Shown here piece by piece: positions 39,395 through 50,466 of a stretch of DNA of 62,115 nucleotides. Under the pieces are notes generated by a model. That model was given only the letters and a program-made list of their open reading frames with translations, was not told the origin of the DNA and did not search any database. The DNA comes from Verrucomicrobiota bacterium (GTDB lineage: Bacteria > Verrucomicrobiota > Verrucomicrobiia > Limisphaerales > SXTU01). Both the position numbers and the translations under genes were made by a program. Each line of letters starts with the position of its first letter. The first letter of the stretch is position 1. The DNA is taken from assembly GCA_016871445.1 (NCBI GenBank), contig VHDH01000009.1, forward strand, positions 1-62,115. The letters run 5' to 3'.

Positions 39395-40297
39395 TTAGGG
39401 CTTGGGTGTTGGGGTTGGTTCGATTGGCAGCGGGGAGGCCGGTGACAGCGTGGGCAAGGCCGGGGTGACGGGGGCCGGCTCAGTTTTTGGGGCGGTCGTG
39501 CTTGAGGAGGGCGCGGGCAATGCCTTCGTGCCACCAGCAGGTAACTTAAGTTTCTGGCCAACGGTGATACGGTCGGTCTTAAGACCATTTGCCTCGCGCA
39601 GTTTGTCCACCGAGGTTCCATATTTCCGCGCAATGGTGCCGAGCACATCACCAGACTTTACAATGTGCGTGCTACCGTCGGCGTCAGGTGCGGCAGAATC
39701 AGCGGTCTTGGCCACTGTCGCTTTTGGCGTCTTAGGAGTTGGCGCGGGGATGTTCAGCTTCTGACCAATTTTGAGCTTTGTGGAATCCACGCCGGGGTTG
39801 GCCCCCTCGATGGCCTTCACCGTGACGCCGTATTTTTTTGCAATGATTTCGAAGTATTCGCCCTTGATGACAACGTGAGTCTTCGCCTCGCCGGGAGTGG
39901 GATCCGGCGCAGCGGGCGGGGGCGTGATTGCGACCGGCGGCGGTGTTACAACTGAAGGCGGTGTGATGGGTGCAACCGGTGGCGGCGTTACAATTGGTGG
40001 CGGCGTTACAACTGGTGGCGGCGTAGGCACGCTGCCGATAGGTGGCAAGGTCCCTGGAGCAGGCGGGACTGGCAAGCCGAGGTCGGCGGGCGGCGTAATG
40101 GGCGGCAGCACCGGTTCGGGCGCCGGTCGCTTTGGCTCTGGCTTGGATTCGGGTTTGCACCCGGCCATCAAAATGCCGCCGAGCACCACGGCATGAATGC
40201 CGAGGAAGATGGCGACAATGACGGGCAGGTTATTTTTTCGCCTGGCTTTCTGCTCAAGGAGCGAGCCTTGCGGGTTTATCGGATTTGGAGTGCTCAT
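39395..40297 (-). CDS. Membrane-anchored protein with two LysM domains
   Basis: A 300-residue protein: a short basic N-terminus, one membrane helix (24-47), a Pro-rich spacer (52-135) with imperfect VVTPPP repeats, then LysM domains at 140-184 (THVVIKGEYFEIIAKKYGV) and 210-253 (THIVKSGDVLGTIARKYGT), and a Pro/Thr-rich tail. LysM binds glycan strands, so this probably ties the membrane or divisome to peptidoglycan. It lies between murD and ftsW, which is not a standard dcw position. Past its stop, another frame stays open to 39265 (see findings), so the true C-terminus is uncertain. Confidence 0.87.
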   Translation of the reverse strand: MSTPNPINPQGSLLEQKARRKNNLPVIVAIFLGIHAVVLGGILMAGCKPESKPEPKRPAPEPVLPPITPPADLGLPVPPAPGTLPPIGSVPTPPPVVTPPPIVTPPPVAPITPPSVVTPPPVAITPPPAAPDPTPGEAKTHVVIKGEYFEIIAKKYGVTVKAIEGANPGVDSTKLKIGQKLNIPAPTPKTPKATVAKTADSAAPDADGSTHIVKSGDVLGTIARKYGTSVDKLREANGLKTDRITVGQKLKLPAGGTKALPAPSSSTTAPKTEPAPVTPALPTLSPASPLPIEPTPTPKP

Positions 40298-40331
40298 ATG
40301 GTGTGTGACTTTGGTGGCAGCTTTGTCTGCT

Positions 40332-47495: not shown

Positions 47496-47499
47496 GGGT

Positions 47500-47808
47500 T
47501 CAGTCGGTGGTTGATTTCGCCCCGCCTCGCTGGGCGGCCAACTCACTCGATAGGAGGGAGAAGGCCTGAGCAGCGCGCAGCGCACTTCGGCGCACGTCCG
47601 CTCGCGGCGTGCGCGCAACGGACACCGGCACCCAACTCTGCGCCAGCACCAGCGAGCGACCAGGGGCGCGGCGCGGGCGGCCGCCAACCTGAGGTGGCGA
47701 TGATTTGGCTTTAACCTCAGGGCTAGGCTCCTCACGTTGATCACTACCTAGACTAGGAGTTGTCGTAATTGCAGAAGCGGGCGTGGTATTGGTATCAGCG
47801 GCTTTCAT
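47500..47808 (-). CDS. Unknown 102-residue protein between ftsI and murE
   Basis: No family recognised. The ATG at 47808 is 2 bases after the ftsI stop (TGA-tt-ATG) and its stop is 4 bases before the murE ATG, so it fits the operon exactly. The N-terminal half is Thr/Ser/Pro-rich and probably disordered (NTTPASAITTTPSLG). The C-terminal half is basic with a likely helix (DVRRSALRAAQAFSLLSSELAAQRGG). No membrane helix or signal is present. Without it the operon would have a 315-base hole, which supports a real gene. A role with FtsI or MurE is only suggested by position. Confidence 0.6.
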   Translation of the reverse strand: MKAADTNTTPASAITTTPSLGSDQREEPSPEVKAKSSPPQVGGRPRRAPGRSLVLAQSWVPVSVARTPRADVRRSALRAAQAFSLLSSELAAQRGGAKSTTD

Positions 47809-47810
47809 AA

Positions 47811-49943
47811 TCAATTCGTTCGGTTGGTTCTCAGCGGTGCTTGCGCGAGCCCGGTGACGGGTTCGCCCACGGCGGTTTCGGGGCGAATGTTCAGGTGGTT
47901 GGCTGCACGCAAGGCGATGTTTTTGAATGCAGGTGCTGCCACGACGCCGCCGTAATAACCCTTGGATTTCTCGGGCTCATCCACGGCCACGTAGATGAGT
48001 AGCTCCGGGTTGTCCGCCGGGAAAAAACCAATAAACGACGAGAAATACTTGCTATGGCTATACTCGCCATTAACCAACTTCTGGGCCGTCCCAGTCTTAC
48101 CGGCGGCGGTGTAATAACCGAGACGTGCGCCAGCCGCGGTACCATCGGTGGATACGACGCGCTTGAGCGTCTCAACGACCTGCTTGGAGGTTTCAGGCTT
48201 GAAGACTTGCCGCACGATTTGCGGGTGGTTCTTCATAACCACTTTGCCATCGGCATCCTCGAGTCGGTCCACGAGCAGTGGGCGCATGAGCTTGCCGCCA
48301 TTAGCGATCGCCGCCATCGCCATCGCCATCTGAAGCGGCGTCGCGGCGGCGGAGTGGCCGATGGATACGCGCGAGCCAGTGATACCGTCCCACTTCTTTA
48401 GAGGGATGAGTTGTCCACGTGCCTCACCCGGTAACATGACGCCCGTGCGTTCTCCAAAGCCAAAACATGTGAGGTAGTGGAAAAGCCCCGGGTCTCCGAG
48501 CCGCAGGCCAATTTTCGCCGAGCCAATGTTAGACGACTTCATCATCACGTCCTCGACCGAAAGGACGCCGAGTGGGTCGTGGTCACGGAGCGGCCGACCC
48601 TTGTAAAGCCAAGAGCCGCGCTCGCAATCAATCCGCTCGCCAAGCGTGGTTAGCCCCTCGTTCAGGGCTGCGCCGATGGAGACAATCTTAAAAGTCGAGC
48701 CAGGCTCGTAACTGTCCACGATCATGCGGTTCTTGAGCGCAGCGATGGGCGATTTTCCGGGCGCGTTCGGGTCGTAGGTCGGGCGCGATCCCATCGCGAG
48801 GATTTCGCCGGTGCGTGGACGCAGCACAATGGCGGAGGCGCTGGCGGGATTGAACCTCGCCATAATTTCGCCCAACTCAGTTTCGAGGATGTGCTGCATT
48901 GCGGCGTCCAGCGTGAGCACGGCGTTGAGGCCGTCCTGTGCCTCGACTTCCTGCTGGCGGTTCATCACTAACTCGGCGCGGTTGCCGCCGACCTCCATTT
49001 CACGCCAGCCACGCCTGCCGCTGAGATGTTCGTTAAGGGTGCGCTCTAGGCCGTCTAGGCCAATAGCCAGCGTGACCGCCTCACCGGTCATTGCGTTGGT
49101 GCGCGTGACGGGCCCCATGAAGCCAAGCACATGCGCGGCGAGGGACTGATTCGGGTAAATGCGGATCTGATCGTCTACAGGATCGCTGTTGATGGCCTTG
49201 GCACGCAACTCGCGGTAAAAGGCGCGCTCCCTGCGCGGGAGCTTCCTCTCATCTACGCCAAAGCTAAGCTTGGCCATCGTCGAGGCAATTTCCTGCCACT
49301 GTTCGAGCGGCACTTTGCGTGCGAGCACAACATGGCGATTCGTCGAGATAACGAATTGGTTGGTGACGACGACATGGCTGTTCGAGAGGACTAGCGGCGA
49401 ATTGGTCGCGACGGCTGCGTAATTGGTTGTGACCACGCCGTGGTGTATGGCGATGAAGCGGTTCGTGTGCAGGACGCCACGCGGCGCGGTCACGAAGCCA
49501 TCCACGACAACAATATGGCGGTTGGTGAGCAACACACCGTCGAGGGAGGCGACTGGGTTGGTGCGGACAGTGATTTGCGGAAGAAGGCGTTTGTGCAAGT
49601 CCGCCTCGGATAAGTTGAGAGTCGGCGCAAGCGCACGGGCAATTTCAGCCTGCCGATCACCGATCAGCACCGGATCAGCAAAGACGGTTTTCACCGGACG
49701 GCTGGTGGCAAGGAGGCTGCCGCGCGCGTCACGGATATCGCCACGCCGGGGTTCGAGCGTACGGGTCTGGCGGACTTGAGCGGTGGCCTTAGCTTTAAGG
49801 GCTTCGTGCTGCAAGACCTGCAAGTCCACAAGCCGGTAACCAAGGCCGCAAAAAGCGACAAACAAAAGGAAGCCCATCAGCACCAGCCGGCGGTTTTGAA
49901 ACGGCTGGAGCGTAGCGTCCTGGTCTGTCACTGGGGCGCGCAT
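47811..49943 (-). CDS. ftsI: Septal peptidoglycan transpeptidase FtsI (PBP3-like)
   Basis: Class B penicillin-binding protein of 710 residues, longer than the usual 580-650. It has a membrane helix at 20-37, a pedestal domain from RTLEPRRGDIRDARGSLLA, and a transpeptidase domain with STFK (416-419, catalytic Ser416), SSN (470-472) and KTG (616-618). Residues about 127-206 are an extra, repetitive Thr-Asn-rich insertion in the pedestal (see findings). No PASTA domain. It cross-links septal peptidoglycan with FtsW. Its ATG overlaps the stop of the 21-residue ORF (TGATG). Confidence 0.95.
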   Translation of the reverse strand: MRAPVTDQDATLQPFQNRRLVLMGFLLFVAFCGLGYRLVDLQVLQHEALKAKATAQVRQTRTLEPRRGDIRDARGSLLATSRPVKTVFADPVLIGDRQAEIARALAPTLNLSEADLHKRLLPQITVRTNPVASLDGVLLTNRHIVVVDGFVTAPRGVLHTNRFIAIHHGVVTTNYAAVATNSPLVLSNSHVVVTNQFVISTNRHVVLARKVPLEQWQEIASTMAKLSFGVDERKLPRRERAFYRELRAKAINSDPVDDQIRIYPNQSLAAHVLGFMGPVTRTNAMTGEAVTLAIGLDGLERTLNEHLSGRRGWREMEVGGNRAELVMNRQQEVEAQDGLNAVLTLDAAMQHILETELGEIMARFNPASASAIVLRPRTGEILAMGSRPTYDPNAPGKSPIAALKNRMIVDSYEPGSTFKIVSIGAALNEGLTTLGERIDCERGSWLYKGRPLRDHDPLGVLSVEDVMMKSSNIGSAKIGLRLGDPGLFHYLTCFGFGERTGVMLPGEARGQLIPLKKWDGITGSRVSIGHSAAATPLQMAMAMAAIANGGKLMRPLLVDRLEDADGKVVMKNHPQIVRQVFKPETSKQVVETLKRVVSTDGTAAGARLGYYTAAGKTGTAQKLVNGEYSHSKYFSSFIGFFPADNPELLIYVAVDEPEKSKGYYGGVVAAPAFKNIALRAANHLNIRPETAVGEPVTGLAQAPLRTNRTN

Positions 49944-50028: not shown

Positions 50029-50466
50029 TCAGCGTTTTCTGGCCGAGGACGGCAATGGCTTGGTGGCGAAAGCGAGGTAGTTTTTGTCGGCCGGCAAGGA
50101 CGTCGCAGTCACAACCGGCAAAGGAGCGTTACGCGGTGCGTTGCGCACAACCGAACCTTCGACCAGTGTGAGAATCTGGTCGGGCGTGGGAACGGCAAGG
50201 CCGAGCTTCAACTCCCTCACGCGCGCGTCGAGGTAAGGTAGCGAGTGGAGCATCGCCATCTGCTGGCGACGCATTTCATTCTCGCGCTTGAGGTTGGCGA
50301 GTTTCTTTTCGAGCTGCTCGGTTTTTACACCGAGCGAGTAAATCTGCCGCTTCTGCCAGACGTAGCAGACCGCGAGGGAGCCGATGACCGAGCAGATGAA
50401 GAAAGCCTTCACCGCCGGCCCAAAGCGTACGCCGCCACCCGAACTATTCTTGCGATTCTTCGCCAT
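50029..50466 (-). CDS. ftsL: FtsL-like cell division protein
   Basis: A 145-residue bitopic protein: a basic N-terminus (MAKNRKNSS), one membrane helix (AFFICSVIGSLAVCYVW), a leucine-zipper-like coiled coil (about 45-75, LGVKTEQLEKKLANLKREN), then a short extracytoplasmic tail. This architecture and the position between rsmH and ftsI identify FtsL, which recruits the septal synthase with FtsB and FtsQ. Sequence similarity alone would be weak, as is usual for FtsL. ATG 50466 is preferred over the TTG two codons earlier. The 121-base gap toward rsmH shows no gene. Confidence 0.75.
   Translation of the reverse strand: MAKNRKNSSGGGVRFGPAVKAFFICSVIGSLAVCYVWQKRQIYSLGVKTEQLEKKLANLKRENEMRRQQMAMLHSLPYLDARVRELKLGLAVPTPDQILTLVEGSVVRNAPRNAPLPVVTATSLPADKNYLAFATKPLPSSARKR

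Follow-up and report, generated by a model that had tools for sequence, protein, structure and literature searches.

The window (the whole 62,115-nucleotide stretch of contig VHDH01000009.1 that was analyzed, from a Verrucomicrobiota bacterium of the order Limisphaerales) contains a division and cell wall gene cluster in which ftsI has mraW and ftsL upstream (Pfam) and a MurE-like frame downstream, with frames named by eye as ftsW, ftsQ, ftsA, and ftsZ farther along. The features of ftsI and its upstream neighbor are as follows:

47811..49943, minus strand: ftsI, a PBP3-like class B penicillin-binding protein (PBP) of 710 amino acids plus stop, with PF03717 and PF00905 above cut-offs
47814..47828, minus strand: C-terminal TNRTN, FtsI residues 706 to 710 (sequence)
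47916..48836, minus strand: transpeptidase domain match, FtsI residues 370 to 676 (Pfam)
48987..49757, minus strand: PBP_dimer (pedestal) match, FtsI residues 63 to 319, containing the insertion described below (Pfam)
50029..50466, minus strand: ftsL, directly upstream of ftsI, with a weak DivIC match below the Pfam cut-off

In the Pfam search, the PBP_dimer domain (PF03717) scores 69.5 bits against a gathering score of 24.4, and the transpeptidase domain (PF00905) scores 254.4 bits against 22.1. Class B PBPs share the active-site motifs S-x-x-K, S-x-N, and K-T-G, and the corresponding residues S416/K419, S470/N472, and K616-T617-G618 are invariant in an alignment of 71 FtsI rows (7 of 78 were left out: L019, L032, L041, L051, L054, L055, and L075). 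FtsI/PBP3 of Pseudomonas aeruginosa (PDB 8bh1 chain B and 6r3x) has the same domain order and matches at the levels of both profile (E = 5e-128) and structure (Foldseek TM-score of 0.82 to 0.90 by target length for the model of the window FtsI, probability 1.00). Between ftsI and the MurE-like start, about 315 bases (47496 to 47810) contain no clear gene and one 104-codon frame. Elsewhere in the window, a 311-codon frame with a Pro-rich end (39398 to 40330) is flanked by murD-like and ftsW-like frames, and it is probably the LysM protein that a reading of this DNA from sequence alone had named as a possible partner of FtsI.

That sequence-only reading had pointed to a Thr-Asn repeat inserted in the FtsI pedestal at 49326 to 49565 (minus strand), which corresponds exactly to FtsI residues 127 to 206 and falls within the PBP_dimer match, placing the insertion in the pedestal as proposed. 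These 80 residues hold seven TN pairs (positions 128, 140, 160, 173, 180, 194, and 201) and one SN (187), and the spacings of the eight [TS]N motifs are 12, 20, 13, 7, 7, 7, and 7, such that five consecutive motifs lie at an exact heptad spacing. The repeat is real and exceeds chance: among 100,000 shuffles of the same 80 residues, none reached seven TN, three reached six, and no heptad-spaced run exceeded three, as opposed to five in FtsI. Its parts are as follows:

49338..49562, minus strand: Thr-Asn repeat array, FtsI residues 128 to 202, a net 67 residues longer than in insert-free relatives
49503..49565, minus strand: first unit RTNPVASLDGVLLTNRHIVVV, FtsI residues 127 to 147, similar to the one unit that insert-free relatives have (sequences and matrix scores)
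49497..49535, minus strand: VLLTNRHIVVVDG, FtsI residues 137 to 149, pairing with residues 157 to 169 at a 20-residue offset (sequence)
49437..49475, minus strand: VLHTNRFIAIHHG, FtsI residues 157 to 169, pairing with residues 137 to 149 (sequence)
49323..49427, minus strand: five consecutive 7-residue units, TNYAAVA, TNSPLVL, SNSHVVV, TNQFVIS, and TNRHVVL, FtsI residues 173 to 207
49311..49337, minus strand: native head strand RHVVLARKV, FtsI residues 203 to 211, common to all insert-free relatives

The next-highest TN count in the window is 3 per 80 residues (112 stop-to-stop frames of at least 150 codons). The ratio of observed to expected Thr-Asn is 1.38 in the window and 1.77 in other Limisphaerales loci (FtsI included in both), and it is 0.94 in non-Verrucomicrobial loci. 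The roughly 1.8-fold excess comes from the frames of 57 insert-free Limisphaerales FtsI loci (L008 to L079). A general proteome habit was considered and rejected, as so mild an excess does not explain seven TN in 80 residues.

Within the order, the insertion was found in the window's genus only. A search for relatives kept 79 loci, or 77 after two C-terminal fragments (L058 and L077) were dropped; 8 of these share the slice length of the window FtsI at this site (146 residues), and the remaining 69 have 62 to 88 residues there. Relative to the latter, the insertion adds a net 67 residues immediately ahead of one strand in the head subdomain of the pedestal. FtsI proteins of the eight insert-bearing relatives are 78 to 87% identical to that of the window, as opposed to 47 to 56% for insert-free Limisphaerales FtsI (e.g., L008), which have one copy of RTN..GxxVTNRYVVLK and no amplification. 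The segment is also missing from the solved FtsI chains aligned to the window FtsI, including that of P. aeruginosa, which has a short loop before FIYLVR, in agreement with the earlier suggestion that typical FtsI/PBP3 proteins lack it.

When FtsI residues 122 to 208 were used to query 293 genomes of the order (E = 0.01), 15 matched: 10 belong to the window's genus, and the other 5 are weak (E = 8e-4 to 0.008) and not FtsI. The weak matches L092 to L096 and L104 were likewise set aside, since they sit in unrelated or chance frames, and no convincing insert was found in the 282 genomes of the order outside the window's genus. Within the family, which here consists of that one genus, the insert occurs in 10 of 11 genomes. 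The eleventh genome (G105) has no ftsI but just a PBP that matches in part, with 34% identity, and its matches to the ftsI neighbors are poor as well (MraW, 46%; MurE, 32%), so the assembly apparently lacks the start of the cluster; a real loss of the ftsI region is possible. The repeat proposed as a search target in other verrucomicrobial FtsI proteins is thus present and conserved in 10 of the 11 same-genus genomes. Five of the relatives (L002, L005, L006, L007, and L009) come from metagenome-assembled genomes titled Akkermansia muciniphila, Klebsiella pneumoniae, or Proteobacteria, and their FtsI proteins are 78 to 85% identical to that of the window; these titles look wrong. A borrowed domain was also considered and rejected: there is no second copy in the same genome, and in a sample of 387 genomes of the phylum, the only two matches are the window's own genome and the chance frame L104.

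Within the genus, the insert is of constant length, and the Asn of all eight [TS]N motifs is invariant in 10 of 10 insert-bearing FtsI proteins (one of which, L091, is truncated at the end of its contig), as are D135, D148, G149, G156, and G169. Positions between the motifs are variable, with V, I, L, A, F, or similar residues. An assembly or frame artifact is exceedingly improbable, given that the segment lies in frame, uninterrupted by stops, in 10 genomes. The median dN/dS for FtsI residues 122 to 200 is 0.187, compared with 0.160, 0.098, 0.156, and 0.096 for four other regions (45 pairs); the insert is under purifying selection, though it is the least constrained of the five regions compared. 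These values bear on whether the segment is a neutral, tolerated expansion, in which the tip of the head hairpin accepts extra length and the array merely persists. A dN/dS above that of the other four regions, confinement to one genus, and the very low confidence of the structural model there (see below) all fit such a loop; the uniform length in 10 genomes, the invariant Asn in every unit, and a dN/dS far below 1 do not, as a neutral repeat array would vary in copy number. On balance, we regard neutral expansion as unlikely. At the other end of the protein, R708, T709, and N710 are kept in all nine full-length insert-bearing rows, in a tail of low model confidence.

In a tree built without the insert region (2 of 78 rows, L030 and L047, were left out), the nine insert rows form one branch with a support of 100, and insert-free L008 is drawn as their sister with a support of 94, showing that the insertion has one origin on this tree. 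Between species, units at the same position resemble each other more closely (0.76) than the units of a single species do (0.32), indicating that the array predates the diversification of the genus. No tandem repeat was detected at the array at the DNA level, so the repeat copies are old.

The insert is likely the product of tandem amplification of a native unit, RTN..GVLxTNRYVVLK, which is single copy in relatives, judging from the resemblance of their sequences; the sequence-only reading had not pointed out this likeness to the protein's own neighboring strand unit. At this site, insert-free relatives have a single unit (RTNELGVLVTNRYVVLK in L008, RTNSAGVLVTNQYVVLK in L064, and TNGVLRTNKYVVLK in L054), and the insert opens with RTNPVASLDGVLLTNRHIVVV, followed by VLHTNRFIAI, VVTTNYAAVA, and then the heptads. 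Under a scoring matrix built from 57 native segments, which mix two registers, 3 of the 69 insert 14-mers score at least 5, compared with 4 of 18,687 14-mers from 40 other frames of the window. The summed score of the four best insert units was reached by a fraction of 5e-5 of 20,000 shuffles. Chance 14-mers scoring at least 8 occur at two places in the window, and 2 of the 57 insert-free FtsI proteins have a 14-mer scoring at least 8.3 beyond the native site. Which units score best differs in the other insert-bearing species, and matrix scores are lower in several of them. The likeness of the units may alternatively reflect convergence of short strand-turn motifs.

The sequence-only reading had also envisaged stacked beta strands, such as a small solenoid. 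The composition of the segment is strand prone: the highest strand propensity in FtsI falls in the 80-residue windows starting at residue 137, mean hydropathy is 0.56, and net charge is 0.014 per residue, a composition that is not of the disordered type. The strand part of that proposal is thus supported by composition, and a solenoid is one possible form of it. In the full-length AlphaFold2 model from 71 sequences (mean pLDDT, 84.3; pTM, 0.77), residues 133 to 195 have a pLDDT below 50 and are flanked by strands at 124 to 134, 189 to 201, and 205 to 212; helices of at least 4 residues are absent between residues 125 and 204, at this low confidence. A head fragment (residues 58 to 265) modeled from the nine insert-bearing rows only has a mean pLDDT of 38.4. 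Given these low values, an ordered fold of the segment is putative. Both low-confidence drafts contain short hairpin strands with turns near D135-G136, D148-G149, and H168-G169, and these hairpins are suggestive only.

A specific form of order would be a small beta-solenoid or beta-roll on the head, with two 7-residue strands per 14-residue coil and an Asn ladder, on a plan like that of the grass ice-recrystallization beta-roll. The five exact heptads with invariant Asn are consistent with such a fold, and their periodicity of Asn and Val resembles that of LbR_Ice_bind (PF21300), the beta roll of grass antifreeze proteins. The match to this family at residues 168 to 207 is nonsignificant (E = 0.19; 12.3 bits against a cut-off of 30), and the segment searched alone has no Pfam match. 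Since the upstream units are irregular (12, 20, and 13) and AlphaFold2 draws hairpins at low confidence, a beta-roll seems doubtful. A phmmer search of the segment against the PDB returned SAKe chains (best E = 2e-8), which we take to be designed kelch-type repeat proteins; this hit was set aside because it consists of several short stacked matches, none of which passes alone.

Contact with FtsL or FtsQ had been among the roles first suggested, the segment then enlarging the surface that FtsI offers to the FtsL/FtsB coil or to FtsQ. By profile alignment, the insertion lies near N117-R120 of P. aeruginosa FtsI (by our own count), before FIYLVR, and we take E. coli Arg135-Phe136, where the strand begins, to correspond to R203-H204 in the window FtsI. 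FtsL contacts FtsI in two areas, one of them the head subdomain, in keeping with such a role; in the P. aeruginosa divisome, it contacts the head at L64, P72-P78, and F151-P156 rather than near the insertion site (PMC7614612). Asp94 and Arg135 form a pair in the E. coli head subdomain (residues 88 to 165), where Trp92 is located between Phe136 and His160 (PMC4038516). By analogy with these structures, the insertion appears to be at the far end of the head sheet from the FtsL contact, which disfavors a role on the FtsL coil. Compared by eye, the FtsL coil has no evident clade-specific expansion matching that of FtsI. An enlarged contact with FtsL, FtsB, or FtsQ is accordingly quite improbable.

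An insertion at this subdomain is a known type of change, as that of the subclass B5 PBPs has already been published: it consists of 60 residues that make up four helices and belongs to the domain corresponding to residues 88 to 165 of E. coli PBP3 (PMC4038516). Both insertions are lineage specific, similar in size, and in the same subdomain; that of the B5 PBPs is helical, whereas the Verrucomicrobial insertion is built of repeats and, by composition and a low-confidence model, strand prone. A literature search covering titles and the starts of abstracts found no published account of the FtsI insertion described here.

In E. coli, FtsN sets FtsW activity from outside. A SPOR domain (PF05036) was found in none of 146 genomes of the order and none of 11 in the family, and a control search recovered the domain from 6 of 14 known genomes. 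The idea that the insert is tied specifically to the loss of FtsN is weakened, since SPOR is missing throughout the order and not only from the window's genus; because the insert does not share this distribution, nothing specific points to an in-cis replacement of FtsN. It is very unlikely that the arm serves as a built-in activator, bridging head and anchor or joining synthases and setting FtsW activity in the manner of FtsN.

What the comparisons establish is a conserved, genus-specific FtsI insertion of a net 67 residues, constant in length and of one origin, with invariant Asn. The explanation that we favor, and to which we give about an even chance, is an expansion of the head by amplification of the native unit into an ordered strand-turn arm that offers a docking or self-association surface. 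A unit of about 14 residues bordering the head strand, G-V-x-x-T-N-R-x-V-V, which occurs once elsewhere in the order, would have been amplified in tandem. The copies would form an apolar, uncharged strand-and-turn arm extending from the hairpin tip, with TN, SN, DG, and HG at the turns; that the arm is ordered we infer from these data. On weaker grounds, it would project from the head sheet at the end facing away from the FtsL contact. Its edge strands could then present the docking or self-association surface within the septal synthase and take no part in catalysis; a role in docking, self-association, or contact with the wall is a guess.

If the segment is merely a tolerated loop, it matters little. 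In bacteria that have been studied, the FtsI pedestal relays the activation signal from FtsQLB to FtsW, and if the favored explanation is true, a conserved hub can add surface by local repeat amplification. The insert-bearing FtsI would then be a naturally occurring variant for probing what is in contact with the head tip.
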